The translations under genes were made by a program, and so were the position numbers. A stretch of 42,249 nt of DNA from assembly GCA_031258415.1 (NCBI GenBank), contig JAIRMW010000064.1, forward strand, positions 1 to 42,249, given 5' to 3'. The DNA is from Prevotellaceae bacterium. GTDB taxonomy: Bacteria > Bacteroidota > Bacteroidia > Bacteroidales > UBA932. Below, one piece after another: positions 2,955 through 21,214 of the stretch (positions are counted from its first letter, which is position 1; the number at the start of each line of letters is the position of its first letter). Under the pieces are notes generated by a model. It made no database searches. It saw nothing but the letters and a program-made list of their open reading frames with translations, and was not told where the DNA came from.

Positions 2955-3106
2955 ATTACTGTGGCCAAAGTAGACCCACTGACTACTAACGTGCAGCTTC
3001 TGCGCTCTGCATCCCCTTATCCCTTATATAGCGATAATCGCAGGCTATATTTCGGAGCGGGACCACCCGGAGCCAATCCCGAGCAGTACGTGGACGCCAC
3101 AGTAAT
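2955..3106 (-). ncRNA. Structured repeat/ncRNA unit A
   Basis: Closing stem ATTACTGTGG/CCACAGTAAT; internal stems AGTAG/CTACT, TGCAG/CTGCA, ATATAGC/GCTATAT; - strand TATCTTTGC just outside its right end, T-tract after the left arm. Confidence 0.65.
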
Positions 3107-3154
3107 TTAGTTGCAAAGATAGTAAAAAAAAGTAGATTAAATGAAAAAAAAAGA

Positions 3155-3308
3155 ATTACTGTGGCCAAAGTAAACCGACCGATTACTAACGTGCAGCTTC
3201 TGCGCTCTGCACTCCCTGTATGCCTAATATAGCGATAATCGCAGGCTATATTTCGGAGTCGGACGAACCCGGAGCCAATCCCGAGCAGTACGTGGACGCC
3301 ACAGTAAT
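3155..3308 (-). ncRNA. Structured repeat/ncRNA unit B
   Basis: Same architecture; stem AGTAG/CTACT replaced by AGTAA/TTACT (compensatory change). Confidence 0.65.
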
Positions 3309-3379
3309 TCGATACAAAGATAGTAAAAAAAGAATAAATAATTAAAAAACAACTAAAAACAACTAAAAACAACTAAATT

Positions 3380-4036
3380 ATGGATGCAAAAGCATACACT
3401 TTAAAATTGACGGACGCAATGGCCTCCGAACTAAACGCCATTATTTACAAATCGGGCGCCGCCCCGGAAACGATCAACATCCGTGAAGCCTTCGAGATAC
3501 TCTTGAAGCGCGCGACAGCCCCGCCACCGCCCCAGCCCCCTGTGGCGGAAACCGACGAATACCGCGACCTGCTGGCCCGGCACGACGCGCTCCTCGTCGA
3601 GCATAACAGGCTTGCCGAACAATACGCCGAAGCATCGGAAGCCGCCGCCGCCGCCAAAACCGCCGCCGCCGAAGCCGCCGCCCAAGCCGAAACCCAGCGC
3701 CTGCGGGCCGACGCCGCCGCTGCCGACTGCCGGCAGGCGCAAGACGCCATCGCAGAACTGCGCGCGCTGATCGACGCGCAGCAGTTGCCCGAAAACGCAT
3801 TTATCGTACAGACCGACCCCGGCCGATGGCAACTGCTCTCCGAAACCTGCGAACGCCTCCGCGACGCCGCCACAAAATACCCCAAATTAGCCGTATTCGG
3901 AAACATTACGCCCGCCATGCTGCTCCTCTACATGTTCGAACGATACCTGTTCGAACGACGCCTCGAATGGTTCTTTCCCCTGTCGATCATGCCCCTACAG
4001 CGTATTAAAGAAATCAGCAGTCAATATGTGGAGTAG
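3380..4036 (+). CDS. Ala-rich coiled-coil protein
   Basis: Long Ala/Glu/Gln coiled-coil segment; long ORF in a collinear gene series. Confidence 0.65.
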   Translation: MDAKAYTLKLTDAMASELNAIIYKSGAAPETINIREAFEILLKRATAPPPPQPPVAETDEYRDLLARHDALLVEHNRLAEQYAEASEAAAAAKTAAAEAAAQAETQRLRADAAAADCRQAQDAIAELRALIDAQQLPENAFIVQTDPGRWQLLSETCERLRDAATKYPKLAVFGNITPAMLLLYMFERYLFERRLEWFFPLSIMPLQRIKEISSQYVE

Positions 4037-4286
4037 CCTATTAAAATCCGTATTCCCGATGGTCAAGCAAAATATTCCGACGATGGAAAAAAGCATCGTC
4101 GAATACCTGCAAAAAAAGCCCAAACGACCGGGCGAAAGCGCCATCACAGCCCTGCTCGATACCGACGAAAACGGACACGCACAGATACTCGTCGTCGCCG
4201 TTGCCGACGACCTGCGCATCGTCCGCGAAGTCGAACGATTCCGGCTGACCGAATTTATCGAAACCCTCTTAAAAAAAGCAATGTAG
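4026..4286 (+). CDS. Hypothetical element protein
   Basis: 86-aa ORF overlapping the upstream gene. Confidence 0.55.
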   Translation: MWSSLLKSVFPMVKQNIPTMEKSIVEYLQKKPKRPGESAITALLDTDENGHAQILVVAVADDLRIVREVERFRLTEFIETLLKKAM

Positions 4287-4287
4287 T

Positions 4288-4824
4288 ATGTTGAATATAC
4301 CCCAAACGCCAACCCCGACGCCGGCGAACGCGGCAACCCTGCCCGTCGAACGGGTTACCGCCGCCGACACCGCCGCCATGATGAGCTACAGCCCCGGCAG
4401 CGTCGACGAGCTGGCCGACGAACTGCGGCAGCCCAAACAGCCCTTCGAGGTGCCCGACTTCGAGGCCCTCGAAACGACTGTCGAAACGCCCGAACCCGAA
4501 CCCTCGCCCGCCGAGGCGCGCGCGCAAAACAAAATGGTCGCCCAAACCGTCGCCAGCGTTGGCGACGGCGTGCTGGCATTCCTGCTCTCCGTATTCGCTC
4601 ACGACGAACCCCACGAGTTCCGGCTGCCGAAAGAGTCGATGCGCGACATCATGCCGACCCTCGAGCGATGTATGGCCGGAAAAAACATAGACCTCGCGCC
4701 CGGATGGGCGCTCTTCTTTGCCGTCCTGATCGCCTACCTGCCCCTCGTGATGAAAGCCAATGCCAAACGGAACGAATGGAAAGAAAAACAGAAAGCCGCA
4801 GAGCATGGAACAGCAAGCCCTTAA
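4288..4824 (+). CDS. Hypothetical element protein with C-terminal hydrophobic segment
   Basis: ALFFAVLIAYLPLVM; compact operon with flanking genes. Confidence 0.6.
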   Translation: MLNIPQTPTPTPANAATLPVERVTAADTAAMMSYSPGSVDELADELRQPKQPFEVPDFEALETTVETPEPEPSPAEARAQNKMVAQTVASVGDGVLAFLLSVFAHDEPHEFRLPKESMRDIMPTLERCMAGKNIDLAPGWALFFAVLIAYLPLVMKANAKRNEWKEKQKAAEHGTASP

Positions 4825-5380
4825 ACCGCCCCCCGAAAGAGCCTGTAAACTGATTGCCGTAATCGGCGTAAACGGTACGGGAAAAACAACGGCAGTCATC
4901 CGACTGTTAAAATCCATGAACGGAAAAGCCCTTATTCTTACCCCACACTGTAACGAATATGAGAAATATCCGCACAATAATCTGGAAAAACCGTCCGACT
5001 TCCGATTCTCGGGAATATGTAAAAACTATTTCCCGTCGCGCGAACTGATGCAATCGGTCGTTAAATACTTCTACGACGGGACACTCGTGCTCGAAGAATC
5101 GCGTATTTACATCGAAAACCAGCCCACGCCGCTCAACTACGCCCTGCTCAACGGAATGCGACAGCGAATGACCGACATCATTTTTGTCGGACACGCTTTT
5201 TCCGACGTCCCGCCCCTATTCCTCAACCGAATGACGCGAATACTGCTGTTCCAGACGCTCGAAAAATTAGAACGCAGAAAAGGAGCCCTGCTCTACTTCG
5301 ACCTCTTTAAGGAAACACAGGAAGAGGTAAACAGAAAAGCCCTCAAAAACCCGCACTTCTGTAAACTGATAAAACTATGA
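4805..5380 (+). CDS. P-loop ATPase, candidate genome-packaging ATPase
   Basis: Walker A GVNGTGKT; Walker B-like GTLVLEE; DIIFVGHAFSD; start at MEQQALKPPPE. Confidence 0.6.
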   Translation: MEQQALKPPPERACKLIAVIGVNGTGKTTAVIRLLKSMNGKALILTPHCNEYEKYPHNNLEKPSDFRFSGICKNYFPSRELMQSVVKYFYDGTLVLEESRIYIENQPTPLNYALLNGMRQRMTDIIFVGHAFSDVPPLFLNRMTRILLFQTLEKLERRKGALLYFDLFKETQEEVNRKALKNPHFCKLIKL

Positions 5381-5404
5381 AAACGATTGATCTGAATCAG
5401 TATG

Positions 5405-5502
5405 AAAAATAAAAAAAACCGTCGGGTTTACAGTCGTAGTTTATAAGCTACTCTCCAACGGTTTTTAAGTTGATACCACATATACAACTTACCGCAAAGA
5501 TA
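5405..5502 (-). ncRNA. Candidate ~80-90-nt small RNA with own promoter and terminator
   Basis: - strand TATCTTTGC (5494-5502), hairpin AAGTTG/CAACTT, hairpin GTAG/CTAC, then AACCGTTGG...CCGACGGTTTTTTTT terminator. Confidence 0.5.
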
Positions 5503-5531
5503 GCGTTTTTTTTATTAATACGGAAAAATCC

Positions 5532-5729
5532 ATGAACCGAACACGATTATATACCAAAAAAGAATTGCGACTGCTGGCGGGAGTATCGGAGAGCACATTC
5601 CGCAGATACCTCAATAAAAAGTATTTCGACGAATTACAGAAAATGGGCTACGAAAAAAAACAGAAAATACTCACCCCCACACAATATAAATACATAGTCG
5701 ATAAGCTCGTTATCGTAAATGATGAATAA
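5532..5729 (+). CDS. Small HTH protein
   Basis: TKKELRLLAGVSESTFRRYLNKK. Confidence 0.55.
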   Translation: MNRTRLYTKKELRLLAGVSESTFRRYLNKKYFDELQKMGYEKKQKILTPTQYKYIVDKLVIVNDE

Positions 5730-5743
5730 AGACGATTCAGGCC

Positions 5744-6157
5744 TCACGCATTCGCAATGAACGTCAGCCCCTGCCGTTTATAGTATTTCATTTTCTGGTC
5801 GCTACTGATGAGCGGCATCCTTTCGGTGAGGGATTGGGCAATGATAAGACGGTCGAACGGATCGCCGTGATCTTTGACCGGCGCAATCTGATAGAAGGTC
5901 GTAAGATGCTCCTTTTTGATATATTTGATCTTAAAATTCAAGGTGTTTTCAATATCTTCAAACACATCTTTCGCGGATTTCCATTTAGGTACAACGATCT
6001 TATTCGTCTGTAGGAGCATGAAAATTTCCTGTATGCTAACGGCGCTTACATAAATAAGATTTTCAGGATTTTCGATAATTTGAAATATGTCTTTTGAGAT
6101 AAGAGATGTCTCTGTACGTAAGCGGATAAGAATAGTAGTATCAATTAAGTATCTCAT
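5744..6157 (-). CDS. PIN-domain (VapC-like) toxin
   Basis: MRYLIDTTILIRLRTE...DPFDRLIIAQSLTERMPLISSD. Confidence 0.85.
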   Translation of the reverse strand: MRYLIDTTILIRLRTETSLISKDIFQIIENPENLIYVSAVSIQEIFMLLQTNKIVVPKWKSAKDVFEDIENTLNFKIKYIKKEHLTTFYQIAPVKDHGDPFDRLIIAQSLTERMPLISSDQKMKYYKRQGLTFIANA

Positions 6158-6178
6158 AAATAGTTGGCCTGTTTTATT

Positions 6179-6397
6179 TTATGACGCCTGATAATTAGCA
6201 TCTTTTAATATCTCAAGAATACTTACGCCTGTAAGCACCCGTGGATCATTAATAATCATATCTCCTTTCGGGTGTGCCCGCATCCATTTGCCTGCTTTCG
6301 ACAGTTTTTCTTTGGGCGCTGCCTTTTTTTTGGCCGTCTTTTTTGCTGTGGCTTTCTTGGCCGTTTTTTTTGTGGTTGTTTTTGTAGTTGTTGCCAT
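6179..6397 (-). CDS. Cognate antitoxin-like protein with histone-H1-like Lys/Ala tail
   Basis: MATTTKTTTKKTAKKATAKKTAKKKAAPKEK...; start chosen after promoter TATCTTTG at 6418-6425. Confidence 0.65.
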   Translation of the reverse strand: MATTTKTTTKKTAKKATAKKTAKKKAAPKEKLSKAGKWMRAHPKGDMIINDPRVLTGVSILEILKDANYQAS

Positions 6398-6477
6398 AAT
6401 AGGGTGTTTTTTTATACAAAGATACAAAATAAACGAATACAATCACCCCTCGCCCCCCCCCGACGGCCCCGAAAAAA

Positions 6478-6537
6478 GCAGTCAAAAGCAGTCAAAAGCG
6501 GTCAAATCCGGTCAAAAGCAGTCAAAACCGCTCACGG
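6478..6537. repeat. 10-bp-period direct repeats (GCAGTCAAAA)x5 plus degenerate sixth, between divergent promoters
   Basis: gcagtcaaaa gcagtcaaaa gcggtcaaat ccggtcaaaa gcagtcaaaa ccgctcacgg. Confidence 0.85.
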
Positions 6538-6722
6538 ACGGTTCGGATGTTCGCAACTTTGCACCGGTAATAAAAACGTTGCAACAATTCGATTGTTGGC
6601 GCTTTTCAGAAACGTGAGACGACCGACGCGGGACAACAGCGCCTATCGACTCGTCGAACCTGTTGGCCCCCCTTGCAAATCTTTCGTTTCTTTTTTAGTA
6701 AATTATTTTAATACAATATAAT

Positions 6723-6866
6723 ATGACAAATTATCTGAACAAAACATCCACCGTCGCATGGCTCGTCATCGCACTGATCGTCATTGTGCTCGTTACGCAC
6801 GTGGCAGACAAAAAGGCGACCGGAACCTCCAATTTTTTTGGTAAACTATTAAAAAAGAAAAAATAA
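6723..6866 (+). CDS. 47-aa single-pass membrane protein (not in supplied ORF list)
   Basis: MTNYLNKTSTVAWLVIALIVIVLVTHVADKKATGTSNFFGKLLKKKK*; stop overlaps next ATG. Confidence 0.65.
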   Translation: MTNYLNKTSTVAWLVIALIVIVLVTHVADKKATGTSNFFGKLLKKKK

Positions 6867-7594
6867 TGAAACAAAATTTTCCTTCACTGGCCGGTAAACA
6901 ACGCTTGTCGGCCCGTATGACCGGCGCCGATTTTACCGACGCCATTGCCCGAGCCCGACGGCAAAACTCCGTCCGGTTCAACGGCGTAACGCCCGAAGAT
7001 GCCGCCGACTTCCTGATCAGCAAGTATACCATCCAGTATACGCTTACCAGCGTCGCCGCCTCCTCCGTCAAACTCGCGTTACTGCCGGGCTATTTTAACT
7101 CGGTTACGGAGATCAACGCCTCCCGCGGACTGGCGCTCGACGCCATTATCAACGAGGGCGACATCAAGGACACCGCCTCCACGCCCGCCAAGATTGCGAC
7201 GGGTAAAGGCGAACCGTATCCGATTAACGAACTGCTGCGCTTTGTGTATCGCAATCCGCAGTGCTTCACGCATTTAAAACTACTGGCCAGCTCTCCCGAC
7301 CAGCTCTACAACAACATTGAAATCGTTCACCTCTCGCCCTATCACGGGCTGGCAAGCGACCGGCTTAACCCGTCGATGTACAAAACCGCCAACCAGACCA
7401 ACGATAAGATGGCCGACATTCCCCTGCCGGATTTTCAGATGGACGACCAGACGCTGCTGTACATCACGCTCAACGCCGGCGCGTCGCTGACGTTCATCTG
7501 GAGCGCCGGCGCCCAGTGGAACGAAGCCAGCGACCTGCACGAACTGGCGAAAGGATACGCAAGCATCCTGGCCAACGCCTCCGCAGGACGCTAA
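6866..7594 (+). CDS. Candidate major capsid protein (jelly-roll type)
   Basis: 242-aa beta-rich ORF with NPQCFTHLKLLASSPDQLYNNIEIVHLSPYHG...DIPLPDFQMDDQTLLYITLNAGASLTFIWSAGAQ; first large non-membrane gene of the structural block and followed by a stable hairpin. Confidence 0.5.
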   Translation: MKQNFPSLAGKQRLSARMTGADFTDAIARARRQNSVRFNGVTPEDAADFLISKYTIQYTLTSVAASSVKLALLPGYFNSVTEINASRGLALDAIINEGDIKDTASTPAKIATGKGEPYPINELLRFVYRNPQCFTHLKLLASSPDQLYNNIEIVHLSPYHGLASDRLNPSMYKTANQTNDKMADIPLPDFQMDDQTLLYITLNAGASLTFIWSAGAQWNEASDLHELAKGYASILANASAGR

Positions 7595-7615
7595 GCGGTA
7601 AACAAACGTAATTAC

Positions 7616-7667
7616 GGGGGCCTCCGTTGGCGAGCTGTATAGTCCTCGCCCGCCAACGGAATCCCCC
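7616..7667 (+). terminator. Long hairpin after the candidate capsid gene (attenuator/partial terminator)
   Basis: GGGGG-CCT-CCGTTGGCGAG...CTCGCCCGCCAACGG-AAT-CCCCC. Confidence 0.65.
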
Positions 7668-7697
7668 TTAATTATTTATTACTAAAGAACAAATACA

Positions 7698-8270
7698 ATG
7701 GATAAGCAGCAAGCTACACAATTTGTACAACAGGCCTTTCAGCTGGCCGGCACCGACCGCGTCCGAGCCCTGTTCGGCAAATACAACATGCGCGGCGTTA
7801 CGCCAAGCGTTACCGCATTCGTCGCCGGCGGAAACCTCTATGGACAAGCCTTCCTTACCGATTTCGGAAACATGGTGGCCGACGCCGAGCGCGCGAAAGC
7901 CAAAGCCGACGGCGACACCGGCGACTACGGTATGATTGGCCCGCCGTATGAGCCGGTCGTTCCGGACGACACCGGCGGCGGAACGAATGACGGATGGACT
8001 GTCGTGAAAAAAATTATGGAGTTGGCTGATACAGCAGTTCATACTACTGTATATGCGTGGCAGGCATTCACCGGCGCCCCGACGCCTTCCACCACCTCCA
8101 CTACCGCCACGCAGCCGAACTACTATATCCTGCCCGGCAACAGCGCCGCCACGACCGCCGCCGCCGCCGCCGGCAACAGCAACACGACGCTCATTATCGT
8201 CATTGTGTCCGTCGTATTAGTCGTACTGATTGCCCTGATAGCCGTAACGATGCTCGGCAAAAAGAAATAA
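7698..8270 (+). CDS. Putative virion membrane protein
   Basis: C-terminal TM LIIVIVSVVLVVLIALIAVTML then KKK. Confidence 0.6.
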   Translation: MDKQQATQFVQQAFQLAGTDRVRALFGKYNMRGVTPSVTAFVAGGNLYGQAFLTDFGNMVADAERAKAKADGDTGDYGMIGPPYEPVVPDDTGGGTNDGWTVVKKIMELADTAVHTTVYAWQAFTGAPTPSTTSTTATQPNYYILPGNSAATTAAAAAGNSNTTLIIVIVSVVLVVLIALIAVTMLGKKK

Positions 8271-8274
8271 AACC

Positions 8275-8844
8275 ATGAAAGTGTTGCGCAAACATATACC
8301 CGGAGAACGGTCGCCGGCGGTAGCCGACTTCTACGAGCAGACAATCACGCTCAACGAGCCGGCGTATTCGCAATTCGACGACTTTACGCAACGCTTCATA
8401 CTCCAACACGAACGGGGACATCTGGCGCTCGATACGCTCGACGAAATGGCCGCCGACCGCTACGCCTTCGACGCCCTCGCCGGCAGCGAACCCTACAGCC
8501 TGCGAAAAAGCGTCGAAGCCCTCGAAAACTCGTTGCCCTATACCAACCCGGAGCACTACGCCCGCCTCCGGCAGCAGCTGCGGCGAGCCCTCGAATGGGA
8601 CGCCAACCACGGCAACCCCGACGCCGCCAAAGCGCTGGCCGAACTCGACCGATACGCCTACTACACCGACTACCAGGGCAGCAACTGGGAGTCCTACCAG
8701 AAACAACAAATAGTCAAGACACGGGCTGACTCCGACAAAATACTGGCCGGCTCCTATACCCTCAACACCTCGTCGATCGTCCTGATGGGCGTCTTTTTCG
8801 TCGTCGTCATTCTCGTCGGGTTTTCATTTCGTAAAAAAGGATAG
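8275..8844 (+). CDS. Membrane-anchored HExxH zincin-like metallopeptidase
   Basis: FILQHERGHLALDTLDEMAADRYAF (HExxH plus downstream ExxxD) and C-terminal TM. Confidence 0.6.
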   Translation: MKVLRKHIPGERSPAVADFYEQTITLNEPAYSQFDDFTQRFILQHERGHLALDTLDEMAADRYAFDALAGSEPYSLRKSVEALENSLPYTNPEHYARLRQQLRRALEWDANHGNPDAAKALAELDRYAYYTDYQGSNWESYQKQQIVKTRADSDKILAGSYTLNTSSIVLMGVFFVVVILVGFSFRKKG

Positions 8845-8847
8845 ACA

Positions 8848-9159
8848 ATGATCTGGAGTGCAGTTATAAACGGAATAGCCCAATTAGGCTCCTCGATCGT
8901 CGGAATGTTTACGGCAAAAAAAGTCGCCGAAACGCAGAAGCAAATTGCCGAAATCAACGCCGCCGCGCAGCTGCGGATGACCGAAATCAACGCCGACGTC
9001 CGGCAATACGAGACCGACGCCGCACAGATCGACACACAGTACAACGGCCAGTTTGCCCTGGAACTGTCGGAGTATAAAAATGCCGGATTCCAGACCGGCA
9101 TCCTCACGCTCGCCATTGCCGTAACCTGCATCCTATACATTTTAAAAAAACGACCGTAA
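8848..9159 (+). CDS. Putative virion membrane protein
   Basis: Coiled coil plus C-terminal TM and KKRP tail. Confidence 0.6.
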   Translation: MIWSAVINGIAQLGSSIVGMFTAKKVAETQKQIAEINAAAQLRMTEINADVRQYETDAAQIDTQYNGQFALELSEYKNAGFQTGILTLAIAVTCILYILKKRP

Positions 9160-9162
9160 ACG

Positions 9163-9465
9163 ATGACCGCGCAGACCTTAAATAAAGAAGTAACGGCCAT
9201 AGCCAGAAGCTACTACAGAAAATACAGGCGCTACGGCGACCTGATACCGGAATACGACGCCCGACAACTGTACAACCTGACGACCCTCGACATGGAACTG
9301 AGCGGCGCCGAATACGAACCGGAAGCCCTCGCCACCGTCATCGAAGGAAATATCATCTCGGGCGCCTACAAGATCGATACCGAAGATAACGTATTGCTAT
9401 ACCTCTTCTTTGCCGCTATCGTCATCTGGGTCTATTACTATTATAAAGCCAAATTGAAAAAGTAA
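9163..9465 (+). CDS. Putative virion membrane protein
   Basis: C-terminal TM LLYLFFAAIVIWVYYYYKAKLKK. Confidence 0.6.
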   Translation: MTAQTLNKEVTAIARSYYRKYRRYGDLIPEYDARQLYNLTTLDMELSGAEYEPEALATVIEGNIISGAYKIDTEDNVLLYLFFAAIVIWVYYYYKAKLKK

Positions 9466-9502
9466 CAGAAATGTTTGCTCAAGCATATAAATTAAATAAA
9501 TA

Positions 9503-10000
9503 ATGGGACCACTTACAAAAGAACTTAAATCCGTCTGGGCCGAATATACGGAATTGCTGGACAAAATTAGCGATATAAAGATTTATCTATACGATATGGA
9601 CGTGCCTGACGCCTCCGCAGAAACCCGAGCGTTTTTAGATCATTTTTACGCGGAATACAACCCAATAAAAGAATGGTACGATGGCGCTTATTCTACTATT
9701 TCTGAATGGCATTTAAATAAATACAATGATGACGTAAAGGAAGAATGGTTAGTGAACTCCACCACCAATCGCGACGCAAAGCATTTTTTAACCCGATTAA
9801 AAAAACTGTACGGCGAAACGAATGCGTTTCTGTCGAACGGTAGTACGGCTTCCTCATCTGCGGTTCCCGGCGTCGCCGGCGTTCCCGCCGCGACGGGCTC
9901 CAATACCTCGCTGTACGTCGGCCTGCTGTTACTGGCCGTCGCCGGCGTCGGCGTCTGGTGGTTTATGCGCCGCAAAAAAGGAAGGAGAATCAAACAATGA
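9503..10000 (+). CDS. Putative virion membrane protein
   Basis: C-terminal TM LYVGLLLLAVAGVGVWWFMRRKKGRR. Confidence 0.6.
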   Translation: MGPLTKELKSVWAEYTELLDKISDIKIYLYDMDVPDASAETRAFLDHFYAEYNPIKEWYDGAYSTISEWHLNKYNDDVKEEWLVNSTTNRDAKHFLTRLKKLYGETNAFLSNGSTASSSAVPGVAGVPAATGSNTSLYVGLLLLAVAGVGVWWFMRRKKGRRIKQ

Positions 10001-10533
10001 GCGCTTTATCGAACGCACAAGCCGCATTAAACCGCTTTGGCGACGCCTTATCAAGATTCGACGTGCTGACCGGGCTCGACGCCATTCCGGCGACGGCCGA
10101 GGCGATTGAGCAGTACCACACCAAACGGATCGACTACTCCGCCCAAATCACCAATCATAAAAACAGGCTCGATCAACTGACCCGATTACTGACTACGCCC
10201 GTCGGCAATACGTCCCTAACGAAATCCGGCATAAACCTCGAGATTAAACAAATAACCCGCAAGCTCGACGCCCTCGCGTCGGCCGTCTCCGCCGACACGC
10301 GCGACGTGAATACGCTGCATAACGACGCGATAGCCGACCTGCGGGAGCTCGAGCGCACGGATTCGGGCGCCGCGCCCGCCGCCGGCGCGTCGGGATTGCC
10401 CGCCGCCGCAACCGCCGCCGCGACCGCCGGCGCGTCGCGCTGGCTCTGGATGGCAATCGTCGCCGCCGCGATCGTCGCCATCGTATATTTTATGCGCCGC
10501 AAAAAACGAGGAATAACGAATAATAAGCAATAG
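9997..10533 (+). CDS. Putative virion membrane protein
   Basis: Start at MSALSNAQ; coiled coil; C-terminal TM WLWMAIVAAAIVAIVYFMRRKKR. Confidence 0.6.
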   Translation: MSALSNAQAALNRFGDALSRFDVLTGLDAIPATAEAIEQYHTKRIDYSAQITNHKNRLDQLTRLLTTPVGNTSLTKSGINLEIKQITRKLDALASAVSADTRDVNTLHNDAIADLRELERTDSGAAPAAGASGLPAAATAAATAGASRWLWMAIVAAAIVAIVYFMRRKKRGITNNKQ

Positions 10534-10535
10534 CG

Positions 10536-11126
10536 ATGAATACTACTACTATATATCCCCGCGGGGTGGTCATCAACGAGCCTGCCAGTATGACGTTAGT
10601 GCGTCCGACGGGCGTCCGCGGACGTCATGTGTTCTGGCTGGCGCAGTCGGGCATTGTCTACCCCCGCCGGTCGGAGGCTATAGCCGACCGCGCCGGCACG
10701 CTTATTGCCTGCACGGCGGCGGCGCGCGAAGCGCTGCAGGCAGGCGAGCGGCTGCTCGTGCGTCCGGCAGCGATGCCTGCCGAAGTACGCATTCCCGGCA
10801 TTTTTGAAGAGCTTTACGGCGAGTCGTTCTACCGCGCCACGTTTATCGAAACGCCCTATATGGTTCCGGCGTCGGTCAAACCCACACAGCATTCGTCGCT
10901 GTGGATTTCAGCGACCGGACGCCTGTACCGGACGTACCGCCACGCCGCCACCGACGACCCGTCGCGGGCCATCGACCTGTCGGCGACGACGGGCGTAGCC
11001 GTCAAACCGTTTCCGTGGCTCTGGGTCGGGCTGGCCGTGGCGGTCGTCGGAATCGTCGTCTGCATCGCAAAAGGGAAAAAACGACCCGGCAAGACGCCGC
11101 CGGTATCGATAACCTATCATCCGTAA
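10536..11126 (+). CDS. Putative virion membrane protein
   Basis: C-terminal TM WLWVGLAVAVVGIVVCIAKGKKR. Confidence 0.6.
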   Translation: MNTTTIYPRGVVINEPASMTLVRPTGVRGRHVFWLAQSGIVYPRRSEAIADRAGTLIACTAAAREALQAGERLLVRPAAMPAEVRIPGIFEELYGESFYRATFIETPYMVPASVKPTQHSSLWISATGRLYRTYRHAATDDPSRAIDLSATTGVAVKPFPWLWVGLAVAVVGIVVCIAKGKKRPGKTPPVSITYHP

Positions 11127-11137
11127 AATCGACAATC

Positions 11138-11608: not shown

Positions 11609-11676
11609 AAAGCGCGTCGCGCGGCGAGTATCGAACATCGAAAAGTCTAAAAGTCAAATTTTAAAATAGAGTAAAA

Positions 11677-11862: not shown

Positions 11863-11880
11863 TAACAGGCTCGTAACGGA

Positions 11881-12312: not shown

Positions 12313-12365
12313 CAAACCGTAAACCGTACGCTGTTTTAACCGTTTAACGTCCAAATTTAACGAAC

Positions 12366-12997: not shown

Positions 12998-13050
12998 CCG
13001 ACGACCTCGCCCAACGACTGTACGGGGCCTTCTTTTATGAATATGACGAT

Positions 13051-13137
13051 ATGGATCGATTTTTAAACTGGACAATAGTGGCCCTGCTGTTTGCGCTGAC
13101 CTGCACGTTAGGGTATAAATTAATTAAAAAGAGTTAG
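13051..13137 (+). CDS. 28-aa membrane peptide (not in supplied ORF list)
   Basis: MDRFLNWTIVALLFALTCTLGYKLIKKS*. Confidence 0.5.
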   Translation: MDRFLNWTIVALLFALTCTLGYKLIKKS

Positions 13138-13142
13138 GTATT

Positions 13143-13697
13143 ATGAACCCAATAGTAGCTATGAGTGGCGCCGATCTCGCCGGACGGGGCGTCGAGCTCG
13201 CCGGACAGGGCGCCAAGGCCGCCGGCAAGGCGGCCGGCTCGCTGTTCAACGAGCCGATTGTCGGACGTTTTACGCTCAAGAAACTGACCGTATGGATGGT
13301 GGCGGCATTCGTACTGTATCTCGTATGGTATTTTTTCTTCCGAAAATCCGCCGCCGAAAAAGCCGCCGACAAGGCCGCCGAAACCGTCAACGGAATCACC
13401 ATTAACAGCAGCAATATTTCGCTTTCTACCAACGATATAAATCTTATTTCGCAGCAGCTGTACAACGCGATGGAGCCGTGGGGCACCGACGAGGAGGCCA
13501 TCGTCTCCACCCTCGACCGCCTTTCGACGAAAGACGACCTGCTGGCCGTGATGAAGCGTTTCGGAACACCCCAATACGGCAGCTGGATAGAAGGATACCG
13601 TTTTTTAGACCTTACCGGATGGCTCAAAGCCGAACTCGGCGGTTCCGTCCTGACACATGTTCGGAATGTGTTCCTCAATTTCGGAATACCGTTTTAA
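13143..13697 (+). CDS. Single-pass membrane protein with annexin-like repeat
   Basis: TM WMVAAFVLYLVWYFFF; LYNAMEPWGTDEEAIVSTLDRL...DLTGWLKAELGG resembles an annexin repeat. Confidence 0.55.
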   Translation: MNPIVAMSGADLAGRGVELAGQGAKAAGKAAGSLFNEPIVGRFTLKKLTVWMVAAFVLYLVWYFFFRKSAAEKAADKAAETVNGITINSSNISLSTNDINLISQQLYNAMEPWGTDEEAIVSTLDRLSTKDDLLAVMKRFGTPQYGSWIEGYRFLDLTGWLKAELGGSVLTHVRNVFLNFGIPF

Positions 13698-13709
13698 TAC
13701 ACAAAGAAT

Positions 13710-13979
13710 ATGATTGACGAAAACACACGTGTACGCAATGAGAGCAGCCTGCTGGAATTTACCCGCGAGCCCGACGCCTTACTGATTGATAGCTCGGCGG
13801 TTTATTTGGGCTATAAATGGTCGGGCAACCACGCCTTTGACGACCCGATGTGGTCGATTAAGCGCATCCGGTGGGACGATACGACCGGCGAAGTGTCGGT
13901 CATGTGGGCCAACGGCAACAAACGCCAGTGCATCTTCCTGTTTTCGGAATGTACGACATACCCTTATGCGTTTGCCTGA
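13710..13979 (+). CDS. Hypothetical small protein upstream of the fibre gene
   Basis: 89-aa ORF; stop/start overlap TGATG with the next gene. Confidence 0.5.
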   Translation: MIDENTRVRNESSLLEFTREPDALLIDSSAVYLGYKWSGNHAFDDPMWSIKRIRWDDTTGEVSVMWANGNKRQCIFLFSECTTYPYAFA

Positions 13980-16900
13980 TGGATAAAGAATTTGTAATCG
14001 ACCTGCTCTCCGGCAAATCCATGCTGCTGCTGAAAAATGGCGGCGGCGAGGGCGACGTGAAAGACGTACAGGTAAACGGCTCGTCGGTCGTTACCGATGG
14101 CGTTGCCGAAATTGACTTAGTGCCCTATGTCGAATACAACGGCGCCGTGAAGAACCTCAACATGGACAGCTTTTCTATCGTCAATGTCGAAACACTGGCG
14201 GTGAACGAAATCAAAAAGAACTCGGCCCTGGCCGTCGCCTACAAAGACGCCCGGACGCCAGAGGACGATACGGACGCCGCCAATAAAAAATATGTCGACG
14301 ACAATACGGGCAATAAAGTAGATAAGGTAGAGGGGAAAGGCCTTTCGACCAACGACTATACCGACGCCGACAAAACGCGGGTGGCCGGGGCGGCGCTAAA
14401 ATTCAAAATCGACGCACACAATGTGTTCGACGTCTTAAACGTGGAAGCCTACGCCTATTCCGACGGCACGACAATCGAATTACGGCATCTCGGCCTGATT
14501 TTCGACTTCGACGACTGGTGCGAATACGCCTCGTACGACGAATCGATTAATACGGTATACCGGACGTTGATCCAGTGGGATTTCAACGCCTCCGACGGCC
14601 TTTATTACCTGAATCTCTACAAGGCGTATACGGCCATACCCATAGCGATAGCCAGCTGGGACGGCGCTAATTATACCTGGTTGGAAGCCGAAGGCGTCAT
14701 TGATCTGGGCTATAAACTCGGCTTTAAAATTGGCGGAAAAATGACCGCCAACTGGTACAGCAGCCTGACGGCGGAAGGATCGGACGACCTGTTCATTGAT
14801 CTGGAATACCTGTACGGCATTCTCAAAGCGACGAACAACTCTATAAACGACTCGATCGACGACCTCTATAAAGCGATCGAAACCGCCAACGGCAAGCTCG
14901 CCGGCATCGCCCCCGGCGCCGAAGTCAACGTGCAGGCCGACTGGTCGCAAACAGACGATACGCAAGACGACTATATTAAAAACAAGCCGTCCGATCTGGT
15001 AGCCGACGCCAACTATACGCATACCGACAACAACTATACGGAGACCGAACGCATCAAGCTCGCGGGCATCGCCGACGGCGCCGAAGTCAACGTACAGGCC
15101 GACTGGAGCCAGCAGACCACCACCGCCGACGACTATATCAAGAACAAGCCGACGATCCCGACGGCGACCTCAGACCTGACCAACGACTCCGACTTTGTGG
15201 CCGACGCCGCCTACACGCATACCGACAACAACTATACGTCGGCCGAACGCACCAAGCTCGCCGGCATCGCCGCCGGCGCCGAAGTCAACGTACAGGCCGA
15301 CTGGGGACAGGAGACCACCACCGCCGACGACTATATCAAGAACAAGCCGGCGATCCCGACGGCGACCTCGCAGCTGACCAACGACGCCGGCTTTGTGGCC
15401 GACGCCGCCTATACGCATACCGACAATAACTATACGTCGGCCGAACGCACCAAGCTCGCGGGCATCGCCGCCGGCGCTGAGGTGAACGTACAGGCCGACT
15501 GGGGACTGGAGACCGCCACCGCCGACGACTATATCAAGAACAAGCCGGCGATCCCGACGGCGACCTCAGACCTGACCAACGACTCCGACTTTGTGGCCGA
15601 CGCCAACTATACGCATACCGACAACAACTATACGTCGGCCGAACGCACCAAGCTCGCCGGCATCGCCGCCGGCGCTGAGGTCAACGTACAGGCCGACTGG
15701 AGCCAGCAGACCACCGCGGCCGACGACTATATCAAGAACAAGCCGGCGATCCCGACCGCGACCTCAGACCTGACTAACGACTCCGACTTTGTGGCCGACG
15801 CCGCCTATACGCATACCGACAACAACTATACGACCGCCGAAAAAAACAAGCTCGCCGGATTGGAACCGTCGACCTATAAAGGCACATTCGGAACGTCGGC
15901 CGAACTGCTCGCCGCGTATCCGAACCCCGTTATCGGATGGTCGGCCGACGTGAATATCGGAGACAGCCAAAACCCCGAATGGCACAAATATATCTGCGAA
16001 ACCAACGGCGTCTGGACGGATGGCGGCACGATGGGCGGCGAAACGCCGGAGTCGATTAAAGTGAAATACGAAAGTAACGACGATACCAATGCGTATACCG
16101 ATAACGAAAAAAACAAGCTCGCCGGCATCGCCGCCGGCGCCGAAGTCAACGTACAGTCCGACTGGAGCCAGGAGACCACCACCGCCGACGACTATATCAA
16201 GAACAAGCCGACGATCCCGACGGCAACCTCGCAGCTGACCAACGACGCCGGCTTCGTGGCCGACGACAAATATACGCATACCGACAACAACTATACGTCG
16301 GCCGAACGCACCAAGCTCGCGGGCATCGCCGCCGGCGCCGAAGTCAACGTACAGGCCGACTGGAGCCAGCAGACCGCCGCGGCCGACGACTACATCAAGA
16401 ACAAGCCGACGATCCCGACCGCGACCTCGCAGCTGACCAACGACGCCGGCTTTGTGGCCGACGCCTCCTATACGCATACCGACAATAACTATACGTCGGC
16501 CGAAAAAACCAAGCTCGCCGGCATCGCCGCCGGCGCCGAAGTGAACGTACAGGCCGACTGGAGCCAGCAGACCACCGCGGCCGACGACTATATCAAGAAC
16601 AAGCCGACGATCCCGACGGCAACCTCGCAGCTGACCAACGACTCACACTTCGTGTCCGACACCTCCTACAATCATACCGACAACAACTATACGACCGCCG
16701 AGAAGAACAAGCTCGCGGGCATCGCCGCCGGCGCTGAGGTGAACGTACAGTCCGACTGGAACCAGCAGACTACCACCGCCGACGACTACATCAAGAACAA
16801 GCCGGGAGCCGTCAGTAAATCGTCCGACGGACTGATGACGGCGGCACTGTATACAAAATTGGGAGGTATACAGGAGTATGCGGAAGTAAATCCCGTACTG

Positions 16901-17110
16901 ATTACCTCGATTGTATTCAACAGCGCCACGGTTTCGCTGGCGACTCAGGTTACCATTTATACGAGCAAAGCGGCAAACGTATCCGTAAAAACCGCCGACG
17001 GAAAAGTAATTAGCGGCACAATGTCCGGGAAAAACCCCTATACATTTACGCCGGCCGATGTATCGATTTTTGCCGGCGATTTTATCATCGAAATAGATCA
17101 AAAAGTATAA
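13979..17110 (+). CDS. Fibre/spike-like protein with tandem 66-aa repeats
   Basis: Nine AG(I)xxGAEVNVQxDWxQ...DDYIKNKP units; start moved to ATG 13979. Confidence 0.8.
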   Translation: MDKEFVIDLLSGKSMLLLKNGGGEGDVKDVQVNGSSVVTDGVAEIDLVPYVEYNGAVKNLNMDSFSIVNVETLAVNEIKKNSALAVAYKDARTPEDDTDAANKKYVDDNTGNKVDKVEGKGLSTNDYTDADKTRVAGAALKFKIDAHNVFDVLNVEAYAYSDGTTIELRHLGLIFDFDDWCEYASYDESINTVYRTLIQWDFNASDGLYYLNLYKAYTAIPIAIASWDGANYTWLEAEGVIDLGYKLGFKIGGKMTANWYSSLTAEGSDDLFIDLEYLYGILKATNNSINDSIDDLYKAIETANGKLAGIAPGAEVNVQADWSQTDDTQDDYIKNKPSDLVADANYTHTDNNYTETERIKLAGIADGAEVNVQADWSQQTTTADDYIKNKPTIPTATSDLTNDSDFVADAAYTHTDNNYTSAERTKLAGIAAGAEVNVQADWGQETTTADDYIKNKPAIPTATSQLTNDAGFVADAAYTHTDNNYTSAERTKLAGIAAGAEVNVQADWGLETATADDYIKNKPAIPTATSDLTNDSDFVADANYTHTDNNYTSAERTKLAGIAAGAEVNVQADWSQQTTAADDYIKNKPAIPTATSDLTNDSDFVADAAYTHTDNNYTTAEKNKLAGLEPSTYKGTFGTSAELLAAYPNPVIGWSADVNIGDSQNPEWHKYICETNGVWTDGGTMGGETPESIKVKYESNDDTNAYTDNEKNKLAGIAAGAEVNVQSDWSQETTTADDYIKNKPTIPTATSQLTNDAGFVADDKYTHTDNNYTSAERTKLAGIAAGAEVNVQADWSQQTAAADDYIKNKPTIPTATSQLTNDAGFVADASYTHTDNNYTSAEKTKLAGIAAGAEVNVQADWSQQTTAADDYIKNKPTIPTATSQLTNDSHFVSDTSYNHTDNNYTTAEKNKLAGIAAGAEVNVQSDWNQQTTTADDYIKNKPGAVSKSSDGLMTAALYTKLGGIQEYAEVNPVLITSIVFNSATVSLATQVTIYTSKAANVSVKTADGKVISGTMSGKNPYTFTPADVSIFAGDFIIEIDQKV

Positions 17111-17112
17111 CG

Positions 17113-18048
17113 ATGAGTTTGATTACCAATTACGGGTCGGTGGCGGTCGTCAGAGGCTCCAAAGGCGGCAAGCCCACGGAGCAGCCTGTCATACTGACTT
17201 TCGTGCTGAAGTCGGCAGGGAGTATTGTCCTTGGCTGCGGCGCAATGGGCACTACTAAAAACAGTTACGGCGTGCCGTATAAATGGGATATAAGCGTCGA
17301 CGGCAGCCCGCTGACGACGTACGAGGGCTCGTCGTCGCCGGTAGCCACCGTCGATCTTGGCACCTTCTCGGCCGGCACGCATACCGTCCGGATATTCAAA
17401 AGCGCCGGCGCGCCCACTAACTGGATACGGGGGCTGAGTTTCTACGCCGCTATCAAACTCGGCTCTTATTTGGAGCTGACGAAAGTAGAAGGCGTCTTTC
17501 CCAATGTGCCGCTCGTGGCGAACTGTTACTATAATATGTTCTACGGGTGCGAGAATCTAACGTCCGTCGGGCGCGATCTTCTGCCGGCCACGACGATGGC
17601 GGACAGTTGCTACATGAATATGTTCTCGAAGTGCACGGCGCTTGTAAAGGTGCCCGAACTGCCGGCCACTGCGCTGGCAACGTCGTGCTACGAATCGATG
17701 TTTTCGGAGTGCGAAAACATCACGAGAGTTCTTTCATTCGTATTATTCCTGCCGGCGACGGTGCTGGCGAACCGGTGCTATTACCGCATGTTCTACAAAT
17801 GTATTGGACTCATCAACGTGCCCGACCTGCCGGCGACGTCGCAGGTAACGAGCTGTTATACGGAGATGTTTAGCGGCTGCACCAGCCTTCAGTCTATTCG
17901 TGTCGGCGCTACGGAATGGAGTATTACGTCCGCGCAGAATTGGGTGAAGGACGTGCCGACGGGCGGGACGTTCACCAAGCCGAATAGAACCACGATCCCG
18001 ACGGGCGTTTCCGGTATTCCTTCCGGCTGGACGGTCGTAAATGTATAA
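17113..18048 (+). CDS. BspA-like/surface-repeat protein, likely receptor binding
   Basis: Repeats LPATTMADSCYMNMFSKCTALVKVPELPATALATSCYESMFSECENI. Confidence 0.7.
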   Translation: MSLITNYGSVAVVRGSKGGKPTEQPVILTFVLKSAGSIVLGCGAMGTTKNSYGVPYKWDISVDGSPLTTYEGSSSPVATVDLGTFSAGTHTVRIFKSAGAPTNWIRGLSFYAAIKLGSYLELTKVEGVFPNVPLVANCYYNMFYGCENLTSVGRDLLPATTMADSCYMNMFSKCTALVKVPELPATALATSCYESMFSECENITRVLSFVLFLPATVLANRCYYRMFYKCIGLINVPDLPATSQVTSCYTEMFSGCTSLQSIRVGATEWSITSAQNWVKDVPTGGTFTKPNRTTIPTGVSGIPSGWTVVNV

Positions 18049-18085
18049 CCATTAACCATTAACCATTACCCATTAATCATTAACA

Positions 18086-18532
18086 ATGCATACAGTATTT
18101 AAATACGCCGTATTTTTAGCGGGCTGCGTGGCGGCTTATTTTGAGCCGATACGGGCGCTGCTGGCGCTGGTGCTGGCGCTGTTTGTCGTCGATTTTATCA
18201 CCGGCATACTCAAGTCGCGCAAGGTTTACGGGCGCTGGACGCTGCACTCCAAACGGCTGCGGTGGTCGTTTGTCAAAATGTTTGTGTATATGGCTGTGAT
18301 GGGTCTGACGTTCTACGTCTGCGAAGCGATGGGCCTCTCCGATGCGACCTCGCTGGCGACGGTCAAGATAGAGGTCTGGGGATTAGTCTACATCGAGGGG
18401 CTTTCGATCGTAGAGAACCTACAGACGCTCTGGCCCGACGACAAATTTTTACAGTTTCTGCATTATCTGCTGAGCGTCGAGTTCCTCAAGTGGATTCCGG
18501 CGCTGAGTCGTTTTTTTAAGGAAAAAGAATAA
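18086..18532 (+). CDS. Phage holin family protein
   Basis: Three hydrophobic segments with DFITGILKSRKVYGRWTLHSKRLRWSFVKM. Confidence 0.75.
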   Translation: MHTVFKYAVFLAGCVAAYFEPIRALLALVLALFVVDFITGILKSRKVYGRWTLHSKRLRWSFVKMFVYMAVMGLTFYVCEAMGLSDATSLATVKIEVWGLVYIEGLSIVENLQTLWPDDKFLQFLHYLLSVEFLKWIPALSRFFKEKE

Positions 18533-18546
18533 GGAATGAACACACA

Positions 18547-19260
18547 ATGAAAACAAAAACAATGTATCGAATCGCCGCCGTCGTCGCCATAGCCGTGGCG
18601 GTCTATTGGGGCTACCGGAGGCGCCGGCGCGGCGCGACGTCCGGCGTGGTAAAAAAGGGGAACGTATATCTCCCGAATATAGGCGTTGACATCGTCCTCG
18701 AGCCGTCCGTCATTACTGACAGGGATGTGGAGATCACCCCGTCGAACGGATCGACGGCCGTCGTGCTCGAGAGGGATATACGTACGGTGGATAGAGAGGT
18801 TGTCGACGATCACTTGCTCATCGACGGTATGCGCTACGACGACGAACAGCCGTTCGGCAGGCGACTCGATCCGGGGGAGCTGACCCTAAGCAGGGAGCCG
18901 GAGGCCCTGGCGCGCTTCTATGAGGCCTCGCCAATACGGGGCGTGCTGGGCGTAACGACCGGCGATACTCAGGCGACTACTGCGGTGCAGGTGGTCGGAC
19001 GCCCGGCGGAGACTACCGGGCCGCTGTTCGACCACGATCAGGGCGAGCTGAATCTGCATAGCGTGTTGCCCGATACGGTTTTCACCGTCATCACGACCGC
19101 CTCGTCGATCGATCGCATCGCGGTCGCCGGCGCCGGCAGGCTGTCGCGCGTCGAATGGCTCTCGAAACCCTACCGGTCGCCCGACGGACTGCTGGCGGTC
19201 GATTTTCGGGTGCGTACGGCCAACCCGTTTGAGACCGTGCATATTGTAACAAATCAATAA
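18547..19260 (+). CDS. Membrane-anchored element protein
   Basis: N-terminal TM then RRRRR; long ORF in operon. Confidence 0.55.
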   Translation: MKTKTMYRIAAVVAIAVAVYWGYRRRRRGATSGVVKKGNVYLPNIGVDIVLEPSVITDRDVEITPSNGSTAVVLERDIRTVDREVVDDHLLIDGMRYDDEQPFGRRLDPGELTLSREPEALARFYEASPIRGVLGVTTGDTQATTAVQVVGRPAETTGPLFDHDQGELNLHSVLPDTVFTVITTASSIDRIAVAGAGRLSRVEWLSKPYRSPDGLLAVDFRVRTANPFETVHIVTNQ

Positions 19261-19281
19261 ACTATTAAAAAATAATTAGAT

Positions 19282-19584
19282 ATGGCAAAACCAGTATTAA
19301 AAAACAAAAAGGAAATCGTCATTCCCGACGGGACGGAGAGTATTGTGGTCAGTTTCCGCACGATCAAACGGAAGGGCGGGATTAAGAATGCGCGCAAGGT
19401 GGTCGTTCCGCGTGCGGCTGCGCAGGCTGTTATCCGGCTGAAAAAGAACCGTCCGGCGACGCAGACTAAGAGCGCGACGAAACGCGCCGTTCTGTCGAAG
19501 GCCGAATTTTTAGCGCGCATGGCGGAAGGCAAACGCAAGGCCGCTGAAAAAAAAGGAGCGCCGGCGCCGGTAGCCCATGAATAA
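19282..19584 (+). CDS. Small highly basic protein (possible nucleoid/DNA-binding protein)
   Basis: Lys/Arg-rich 100-aa ORF overlapping the start of the nuclease-like gene. Confidence 0.5.
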   Translation: MAKPVLKNKKEIVIPDGTESIVVSFRTIKRKGGIKNARKVVVPRAAAQAVIRLKKNRPATQTKSATKRAVLSKAEFLARMAEGKRKAAEKKGAPAPVAHE

Positions 19585-19945
19585 GTTATACGGTTATGAA
19601 AGAGTAGGCCGGCTCAAAATGTCGGTCGCGCGCGCGATCAGGCGCGAGACGGCGGATATTTATGTTACCCGAAACTATCTGCGGCATATCGAAAACGAGC
19701 ATCCCAAAGAGTTGAAAATGTTAGGTCTCGAAGCGATTACGCTGGTGCGAATGGTGGTCAATCAGTATAACCGTATCTATAAGGGTTTAGGCGACTCGTT
19801 GCTGTTGGTGGTTTACAACGGCCGGCCGAAAGCGACGGCGATTGAGTTGAACTGGGCTTTGAAAGAAGGATTTTACGAGGTGAAAACGGCTACGATTATG
19901 CGGAAGGATTTTTTAAAAGAAAAAAAATTACTGTGGTCAAAGTAG
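19577..19945 (+). CDS. Putative BECR/PBECR-fold nuclease, paralogue 2 of 3
   Basis: ADIYVTRNYLRHIENEHPKEL...GFYEVKTATIM; near-identical to 20697-21065. Confidence 0.5.
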   Translation: MNKLYGYERVGRLKMSVARAIRRETADIYVTRNYLRHIENEHPKELKMLGLEAITLVRMVVNQYNRIYKGLGDSLLLVVYNGRPKATAIELNWALKEGFYEVKTATIMRKDFLKEKKLLWSK

Positions 19946-20094
19946 TTCCGCTGCGCTACTAACGTGCAGCTTCTACGCTCTGCACTCCCTCTAATCCGCC
20001 CCGTAGCGATGATCGTAGGCTACAGGGGTAAGCGGCCAGCCCGGAGCCAATCCCGGACGGGGATTCCTTATCGGAATCTGGACGCCACAGTAAT
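19927..20094 (-). ncRNA. Structured repeat/ncRNA unit C, overlapping the 3' end of the nuclease-like gene
   Basis: 10-bp closing stem; GTAGC/GCTAC stem extended by CCCC/GGGG; GATTCC/GGAATC hairpin; promoter and T-tract as in other units. Confidence 0.65.
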
Positions 20095-20139
20095 TTCGCT
20101 GCAAAGATAGTAAAAGGAAAGGAAATGAAAAGAAAAAAA

Positions 20140-20305
20140 ATTACTGTGGTCAAAGTAGTTCCGCTGCGCTACTAACATGCAGCTTCTGCGTTCTGTATCC
20201 CCTTACACCTAATATAGCGATAATCGCAGGCTATATTTCGGAGCGGCCAGCCCGGAGCCAATCCCGGACGGGGATTCCTTGTCGGAATCTGGACGCCACA
20301 GTAAT
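20140..20305 (-). ncRNA. Structured repeat/ncRNA unit D
   Basis: Same architecture; AATATAGC/GCTATATT stem. Confidence 0.65.
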
Positions 20306-20350
20306 TTCGCTGCAAAGATAGTAAAAGGAAAGGAAATGAAAATAAAAAAA

Positions 20351-20471
20351 ATTACTGTGGTCAAAGTGTCCCTCAATTACTAACTACAGATAGAACGCTC
20401 TGTATTCTCTCTACGGTAGGCTTATTTCCGAAAGGGGGGATTTCTTATCGAAACCTGGAAACCACAGTAAT
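20351..20471 (-). ncRNA. Structured repeat/ncRNA unit E (short variant)
   Basis: Closing stem retained; TACAG/CTGTA replaces TGCAG/CTGCA (compensatory). Confidence 0.6.
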
Positions 20472-20513
20472 TTCGCTGCAAAGATAGTAAAAATTTTTTA
20501 AAAACAATATACC

Positions 20514-20690
20514 ATGAAATGGAGTAAGAAACAAAAACAATGGGCGTCAAAAGAGTTGCTGGACTGCGCGAACGCCTACGAAGTAAAGCGACGCAAGGTT
20601 TTACGGAATATTCGCTACCTGAATAATGGCGCCGCCAAATGGAGCGGTCATGCCCACGACTATACCGTATGGCTGCCTGAAATAAAGTAA
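20514..20690 (+). CDS. 58-aa basic protein (not in supplied ORF list)
   Basis: MKWSKKQKQWASKELLDCANAYEVKRRKVLRNIRYLNNGAAKWSGHAHDYTVWLPEIK*. Confidence 0.5.
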   Translation: MKWSKKQKQWASKELLDCANAYEVKRRKVLRNIRYLNNGAAKWSGHAHDYTVWLPEIK

Positions 20691-20696
20691 GCGACG

Positions 20697-21065
20697 ATGA
20701 ATAAGTTATACGGTTATGAAAGAGTAGGCCGGCTCAAAATGTCGGTCGCGCGCGCGATCAGGCGCGAGGCGGCGGATATTTATGTTACCCGGAACTATTT
20801 GCGGCATATCGAAAACGAGCATCCCAAAGAGTTGAATCTATTAGGTCTCGAAGCGATTATGCTGGTGCGAATGGTGGTCAACCAGTATAACCGTATCTAT
20901 AAGGGTTCCGGCGACTCGTTGCTGCTGGTGGTCTACAACGGTCGGCCGAAAGCGACGGCGATTGAGTTGAACTGGGCTTTGAAAGAAGGATTTTACGAGG
21001 TAAAAACGGCTACGATTATGAAAAAGGAGTTTTTAAAAAAAGAAAAATTACTGTGGCTAAAGTAG
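20697..21065 (+). CDS. Putative BECR/PBECR-fold nuclease, paralogue 3 of 3
   Basis: As 19577-19945. Confidence 0.5.
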   Translation: MNKLYGYERVGRLKMSVARAIRREAADIYVTRNYLRHIENEHPKELNLLGLEAIMLVRMVVNQYNRIYKGSGDSLLLVVYNGRPKATAIELNWALKEGFYEVKTATIMKKEFLKKEKLLWLK

Positions 21066-21214
21066 ACCCACTGACTACTAACGTGCAGCCTCTACGCTCT
21101 GCACTCCCTCTAATCCGCCCCGTAGCGATAATCGTAGGCTACAGGGGTAAGCGGGACCGTCCGGAGCCAATCCCAGACGGGGATTCCTTGTCGGAATCTG
21201 GACGCCACAGTAAT
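21047..21214 (-). ncRNA. Structured repeat/ncRNA unit F, overlapping the 3' end of the nuclease-like gene
   Basis: Same architecture as unit C. Confidence 0.65.

Follow-up and report, generated by a model that had tools for sequence, protein, structure and literature searches.

The 42,249-nt window analyzed here is contig JAIRMW010000064.1 of a Prevotellaceae bacterium (GCA_031258415.1), one of the contigs of a 1.84-Mb metagenome-assembled genome (MAG) that is 68% complete. Three paralogous genes for small nuclease-like proteins and six copies of an inverted-repeat unit placed behind them sit within a prophage of this window, with phage genes around the units. The question raised by this locus is what such units do for, or to, the nuclease. 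A first-pass annotation of the sequence had described them as self-contained RNAs pointing at the nuclease gene and had proposed that an array of such RNAs leaves the nuclease controlled, neutralized or guided. Comparison with relatives supports self-contained, structurally conserved minus-strand RNAs with tight linkage to the gene, and we consider it probable that gene and RNA make up a compact toxin-antitoxin (TA)-like module, in which a solo PBECR ribonuclease would be the toxin and a convergent folded RNA its antidote.

Six RNA units behind three nuclease genes

The 10-nt sequence ATTACTGTGG has 13 exact sites in the window, where 0.01 would be expected, and twelve of them form six perfect 10-bp inverted pairs, which are the closing stems of units A-F (Table 1). 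Two units are placed after nuclease gene 1, three after gene 2, and one after gene 3, with B and D as extra copies, and neither BLAST nor a covariance model found a further copy in the window or in the rest of the host assembly, in agreement with the copy numbers given in the first-pass annotation. The perfect closing stems and every compensatory change named there are present in the sequence. One Bacteroidota promoter box, CAAAGATA, which reads TATCTTTG on the minus strand, lies directly beyond the right arm of each unit, and each unit has a minus-strand T-tract after its left arm, also as annotated.

Unit E is an internally deleted variant, which scored only 14.5 bits with the covariance model and has lost the kissing loop described below. 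The placement of the units after the genes needs qualification, because the left arms of units C and F are inside the 3′ end of the nuclease open reading frame (ORF) and specify the conserved residues LLW there. At nuclease gene 1 an orphan left-arm 10-mer is found at 2900-2909, 45 nt before unit A, with no unit at that place, which suggests that an ancestral RNA overlapped the gene end there as units C and F do, and was displaced later. Units B and D overlap no gene.

One RNA fold in at least four sequence types

The named relatives found are Prevotellaceae/Bacteroidales MAGs; judging from the names of their samples, they may come from termite and related guts. At least four types of RNA can be distinguished by sequence; these types cannot be aligned with one another and yet have one architecture, the comparison of which establishes the predicted fold. 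Type 1 consists of window units A-D and F and of loci L045, L052, and L050; type 2 of L044 and two copies in genome G005; type 3 of L047-L049; and type 4 of L075/L060, L077, L079/L061, L081, and L082, with L074 in addition. In the 5′ to 3′ direction of the minus strand the order is an outer stem (types 1-3), a 5′ strand, the hairpins P4, P5, and P6, and a terminator-like T-tract. Two tertiary pairings connect these elements. The first, PK1, is formed by the kissing loops of the neighboring hairpins P4 and P5 and was found in eight sequence forms (CTGCG/CGCAG, CTACG/CGTAG, TTACG/CGTAA, CCACG/CGTGG, CGACG/CGTCG, CTTGC/GCAAG, CTCGCT/AGCGAG, and CCTGC/GCAGG). The second, PK2, joins the 5′ strand to the P6 loop, for example as CCCGCT/AGTGGG, CCGACT/GGTCGG, CCAGCT/GGCTGG, GTTGCCC/GGGCAAC, or TGCCT/AGGCA. 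Both pairings covary. The first-pass annotation overlooked them, and the strongest case for a real RNA comes from these two predicted pairings.

Because some MAFFT alignments (A8, A13) misplace helices, PK1 and PK2 were verified sequence by sequence. The hand-listed helices contain 374 Watson-Crick, 24 G-U, and 1 A-C cells and 0 others (398/399 pair), and in the type-1 alignment of 7 units 98.6% of the cells were paired, a percentage that is biased upward because the same sequences served for naming the stems and pseudoknots by hand. The double-change counts and the slid controls are less affected. The type-1 alignment contained 16 double-change cells versus 4.5 +/- 1.8 in shuffled alignments (0/500), and pairing was only 22-44% when the partners were slid by 1-3 columns; with an eighth unit there were 14 double-change cells versus 4.2 after shuffling. 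Six double-changed pairs were observed in type 3 (0/500 shuffles) and four in type 2 (8/500 shuffles); both types have fewer sequences than type 1 and give a like picture. The complementarity of a unit's own loops was on average 5.1 nt, as compared to 3.0 for swapped loops. Hence, the covariation reported in the first-pass annotation became stronger when more homologues were added. Since PK1, P4, and P5 all covary, the data favor the coexistence of the three helices over an alternative in which the PK1 strands would replace P4/P5.

The functional strand was assigned from the same helices. On the minus strand, G-U cells outnumber A-C cells 24:1, and the minimum free energy was lower on this strand in 16/20 cases (p = 0.004). 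Because of this excess and these lower energies, the comparison puts the putative functional RNA on the minus strand.

At thresholds of E = 5 or 1, Rfam models matched neither the units nor their relatives, and no abiF RNA was recognized. The one exception, COG2908 over the L044 gene end (E = 2), is at chance level and far below gathering. We rate the RNA family as new, while an RNA-neutralized ribonuclease is already a known kind. Two other interpretations of the DNA were rejected. A mobile element with terminal inverted repeats, similar to a miniature inverted-repeat transposable element, was discarded because relatives show covariation of the two arms (ATTATTGTGG/CCACAATAAT in L052), which are wholly different in L050, and because there are no copies elsewhere in the genome. 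The region behind the gene in L060 and L061 was also considered as a convergent coding frame, which was dropped in view of the compensatory stems and kissing loops of L077 and L081.

Linkage of the RNA to the nuclease gene

The homologues have a common layout, in which the stop codon is followed by a terminated structured segment on the opposite strand and then by a minus-strand TAnnTTTG box. A minus-strand CAAANNTA box was found at +50 to +160 past the stop codon in 20/22 homologues, which are related, so that the tally does not represent 22 independent events. Seventeen of the 20 boxes lie at +91 to +156. The two homologues outside the 20 are window gene 2547, where the box at +184 belongs to unit A, which is displaced, and L051, with a box at +21. 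The background, taken from ORF ends in the loci studied only, was 18/207 other ORF ends (9%). The tally covers window genes 2547, 19577, and 20697; L044; both G005 copies, the second of which carries an internal deletion; L045; L047-L049; L051; L054, L055, L056, L057, and L058; L060 and L061; L074; L077; L078; and L081, while the remotest PBECR proteins (L021, L032, L034-L036, L062-L064) were left out.

Wherever a locus has a unit, the RNA is on the opposite strand, downstream of the gene. It overlaps the ORF in type 1 and L054, while in types 2 and 3 its end lies beyond the stop codon. In most relatives each gene is accompanied by a single RNA, and therefore the array noticed in the first-pass annotation, which is present in the window, is not essential. 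In three type-3 loci, two of them in one MAG, the common block is only about 0.7 kb and reaches from the gene upstream region to the RNA promoter; by eye, the neighbors at these unrelated sites look like rfbD-type, ribosomal L25-type, and cupin genes. Because the type-3 loci share only this block, which sets the module boundaries, the predicted transferable unit is the gene together with the RNA. A covariance-model search of 399 genomes of the family for units lacking the nuclease gene found type-1 RNA only beside the gene or its remnant. The module is present in prophages and also at other genome sites of Bacteroidales. The nuclease protein had no match in phage and plasmid collections or in viral contigs, and the unit DNA was absent from the viral contigs searched. 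As to presence outside Bacteroidales, 396 phylum-level and 295 class-level genomes gave none.

The comparison also established that the RNA is retained at broken genes. Only the last 30 codons of the gene are left in L052 (G001), the gene is frameshifted in L050 (G102) and in L080/L082 (G1195), and it has an internal deletion at the second G005 locus, while the RNA is intact in each case. In L076 alone both gene and RNA are degraded. Such one-sided loss is what an antidote would predict, the sample being small. L050 is a mixed case, in which the protein of the broken gene groups with type-2 proteins (L044/L046) and the RNA is of type 1, which hints at RNA replacement or recombination.

Just beyond the unit, L019:2040-2220 and L050:3560-3760 contain another conserved leader, which seems to be structured and has a promoter of its own. 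The sequence common to both is AAAACATATACGGTTC.GTACCCCCGTGT ... GGGAAAGGCGGAACCGTTTTT, with compensatory outer stems, and it had no Rfam match.

The nuclease

The three window proteins are 72-92% identical to one another, and their close homologues are predicted soluble BECR-fold proteins of about 122-135 aa. In the AlphaFold model of the gene 3 protein (pLDDT 89.8), H37 is located in helix 32-41 and T104 in strand 99-109, and both residues are invariant in ten aligned sequences. This arrangement corresponds to the BECR pattern of a His in the N-terminal helix and a Ser/Thr in the C-terminal strand. Foldseek matches among BFVD viral models were MuF/minor-capsid and polyvalent proteins (best E 3.4e-6, TM about 0.7). 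The matches in the PDB were all weak (E > 0.1); the BECR toxin BrnT (3u97) had the top probability listed, 0.75, and HigB was also among the matches. The Pfam PBECR3 profile (PF18812) matched 7/10 members (best E 3e-4) and 7/9 diverse members (best E 1.3e-6), the matches of the window proteins falling under the Pfam curated cut-off. No match to ToxN was found in Pfam, PADLOC, PDB sequences, or the fold matches listed, and the Pfam profile search of the nuclease family gave no match to Abi_2. PBECR domains are defined by a His plus Thr/Ser pattern, and solo forms have been noted in phages (Iyer et al. 2017, PMC5512222). Because both the fold and the His/Thr site pattern fit, the BECR-like assignment of the first-pass annotation stands, and the most fitting description of the window protein is a solo PBECR-type, metal-independent endoribonuclease, with predicted activity.

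A putative antidote RNA and alternative explanations

From this arrangement we infer transcription of the RNA, toxicity of the nuclease, neutralization by direct binding, and a biological role for the pair. A promoter of its own, located close behind the toxin gene, would drive convergent transcription of a folded RNA of about 100-165 nt, which would end by its own terminator at the 3′ end of that gene. The kissing loops of P4/P5, joined by PK2 in types 1 and 4 at least, would give the RNA a rigid surface. Through this surface the RNA most likely binds the nuclease and blocks it, in the manner of type III RNA antitoxins. If transcription stopped or the element were lost, the RNA would decay first and the nuclease would be freed. 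As prophage cargo, the module could serve in retention or in exclusion of other phages. The extra RNA copies with their own promoters might raise the antidote dose, and convergent transcription may also damp the nuclease gene. Among the roles named in the first-pass annotation, neutralization fits best, while nothing found speaks for guiding.

Several points weigh against the toxin and antidote reading. In addition to the upward bias of the paired percentage and the PBECR3 scores under the cut-off, the related homologues of the box tally represent few independent lineages. The genes at L051, L055, L058, and L078 are intact and have no clear unit of the kissing-loop fold, the box being present at the latter three. 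PK2 is weak in type 3 (L047, L048) and not demonstrable in type 2 or L049, and the folds of L054, L056, and L057 are only plausible and unproven. Finally, because some RNAs overlap the 3′ end of the gene, an antisense component is possible.

If antisense action were the whole explanation, control would be similar to that in type I systems: the minus-strand RNA would pair with the 3′ end of the nuclease mRNA, or transcription would collide, and the fold would only stabilize the RNA. Some type I systems typically have such a convergent layout, and in type-1 RNA the 3′ arm is the complement of the final codons of the gene. However, the overlap varies from several codons to none, with the RNA ending past the stop codon in types 2 and 3, and the extra copies B and D have no gene to overlap. 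Moreover, neither a kissing loop nor a second pseudoknot would have to be conserved across several sequence types for an antisense RNA acting in cis, and we consider this explanation unlikely.

The strict linkage and the complex fold would be expected equally of a cofactor RNA, and PBECR domains may bind RNA without cutting (PMC5512222). Hence, the RNA could be a cofactor, guide, decoy, or preferred substrate, and the pair an RNA-protein effector instead of a toxin with its antidote. This is rather improbable, because the RNA has no spacer-like variable segment, and intact RNAs at broken genes as well as accumulated extra copies suit an antidote better. It is similarly doubtful that the kissing-loop RNA, beyond being an antidote, confers activity or target choice on the small BECR ribonuclease, in a minimal RNA-protein effector carried as prophage cargo.

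The fixed minus-strand places of the promoter boxes and T-tracts, together with the lower minus-strand energies and the 24:1 ratio, make it very unlikely that the structure is a stability or autoregulation element in the 3′ untranslated region of the plus-strand nuclease mRNA, even though the units are directly behind stop codons and a plus-strand transcript would fold similarly. An RNA that serves the prophage in packaging or replication and adjoins the nuclease by chance would suit the lysis-region location of the window module, but is highly improbable given that type-3 pairs at unrelated sites by housekeeping-like genes have only gene and RNA in common, and that type-1 RNA was confined to the gene or its remnant in the 399 genomes.

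Comparison with known systems

In type III TA systems the antitoxin RNA repeats lie upstream in one operon (PMC5086642). The module shares with ToxIN, CptIN, and TenpIN a small predicted endoribonuclease adjoining a pseudoknotted noncoding RNA, the location on mobile elements, and the possible occurrence of several RNA copies per toxin. As the first-pass annotation had pointed out, it also differs from them: its RNA is behind the gene and convergent, and its units of about 100-165 nt are self-contained, with their own promoter and terminator, in contrast to short tandem repeats. The toxin is PBECR-like without a ToxN match, and the RNA fold is built by kissing loops of two hairpins. By analogy, the module would work like type III systems, but toxin fold, RNA position, and repeats place it outside that type.

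The nearest functional precedent, judged by analogy, is AbiF with the RNA RCd22 in the Clostridioides difficile prophage phi027, where the RNA neutralizes the protein by direct binding and the pair belongs to the prophage lysis module (PMC12373285). There too, one toxin gene is beside a holin and is accompanied by a short folded RNA with its own promoter and terminator. On the other hand, the AbiF RNA is upstream on the same strand and has two abiF motifs, and AbiF, an Abi_2/AbiD/F protein linked to Cas13 ancestors (PMC12373285), is unlike the PBECR type. Type I TA systems resemble the module in that the antidote RNA is on the opposite strand and meets the toxin gene at its 3′ end. They differ in that the type I toxin is a small hydrophobic peptide, while the module has a soluble predicted nuclease, and in that the module conserves the RNA tertiary structure and not the overlap.

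No description of a noncoding RNA partner of PBECR proteins was found in the literature searched, most subscription journals and preprints being outside it. The best-known class of RNA-neutralized toxins consists of ToxN-fold proteins with upstream repeat RNAs, and the module, if it works as proposed, would add the BECR/PBECR fold and a new gene layout. It would also provide a partner for solo phage PBECR proteins, for whose safe carriage no earlier explanation was found. The predicted fold, with kissing loops and a second pseudoknot, is kept while the sequence turns over completely, and therefore RNA-protein co-evolution could be tested by RNA swaps between types.

Features of the window

Table 1. 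Positions of the nuclease genes, RNA units, and prophage genes in the window
Feature	Position	Strand	Remark
PBECR-type nuclease gene 1	2547..2930	+	127 aa
PBECR-type nuclease gene 2	19577..19945	+	122 aa; left arm of unit C falls in its last codons
PBECR-type nuclease gene 3	20697..21065	+	122 aa; left arm of unit F falls in its last codons
RNA unit A	2955..3106	-	closing stem, P3, P4/P5 kissing loops, P6 pseudoknot
RNA unit B	3155..3308	-	
RNA unit C	19927..20094	-	
RNA unit D	20140..20305	-	
RNA unit E	20351..20471	-	internal deletion, kissing loop gone
RNA unit F	21047..21214	-	
Promoter -7 box TATCTTTG, unit A	3114..3121	-	
Promoter -7 box TATCTTTG, unit B	3315..3322	-	
Promoter -7 box TATCTTTG, unit C	20102..20109	-	
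Promoter -7 box TATCTTTG, unit D	20313..20320	-	
Promoter -7 box TATCTTTG, unit E	20479..20486	-	
Promoter -7 box TATCTTTG, unit F	21222..21229	-	
T-tract at end of unit C	19915..19926	-	with closing stem, intrinsic-terminator-like end; other units laid out alike
Baseplate-type lysozyme	12491		prophage gene
Phage holin	18086..18532	+	prophage lysis-region context
DUF6549 phage protein	21252..21842	+	immediately past unit F
Phage-type integrase	22046..23209	-	near tRNA gene 23395-23465

Other features were observed in the window. Nuclease gene 1 is flanked on both sides by PIN-domain (VapC-like) genes (552-968 and 5744-6157); positions 1-103 look like part of another PIN-domain gene copy, and there is an inverted repeat 1-77/5766-5842. 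A 126-nt tandem repeat with 2.1 copies and many GTAAACCG motifs, which is iteron-like, is located at 1912-2175, upstream of the ORF at 2215-2532. The region 13871-17110 encodes a phage tail-like protein of 1079 aa with repeated 198-nt (66-aa) units. Outside the prophage there are two 21-nt tandem arrays (23679-24117 and 35469-35635), and a 22-nt array is found at the contig end (42130-42249).

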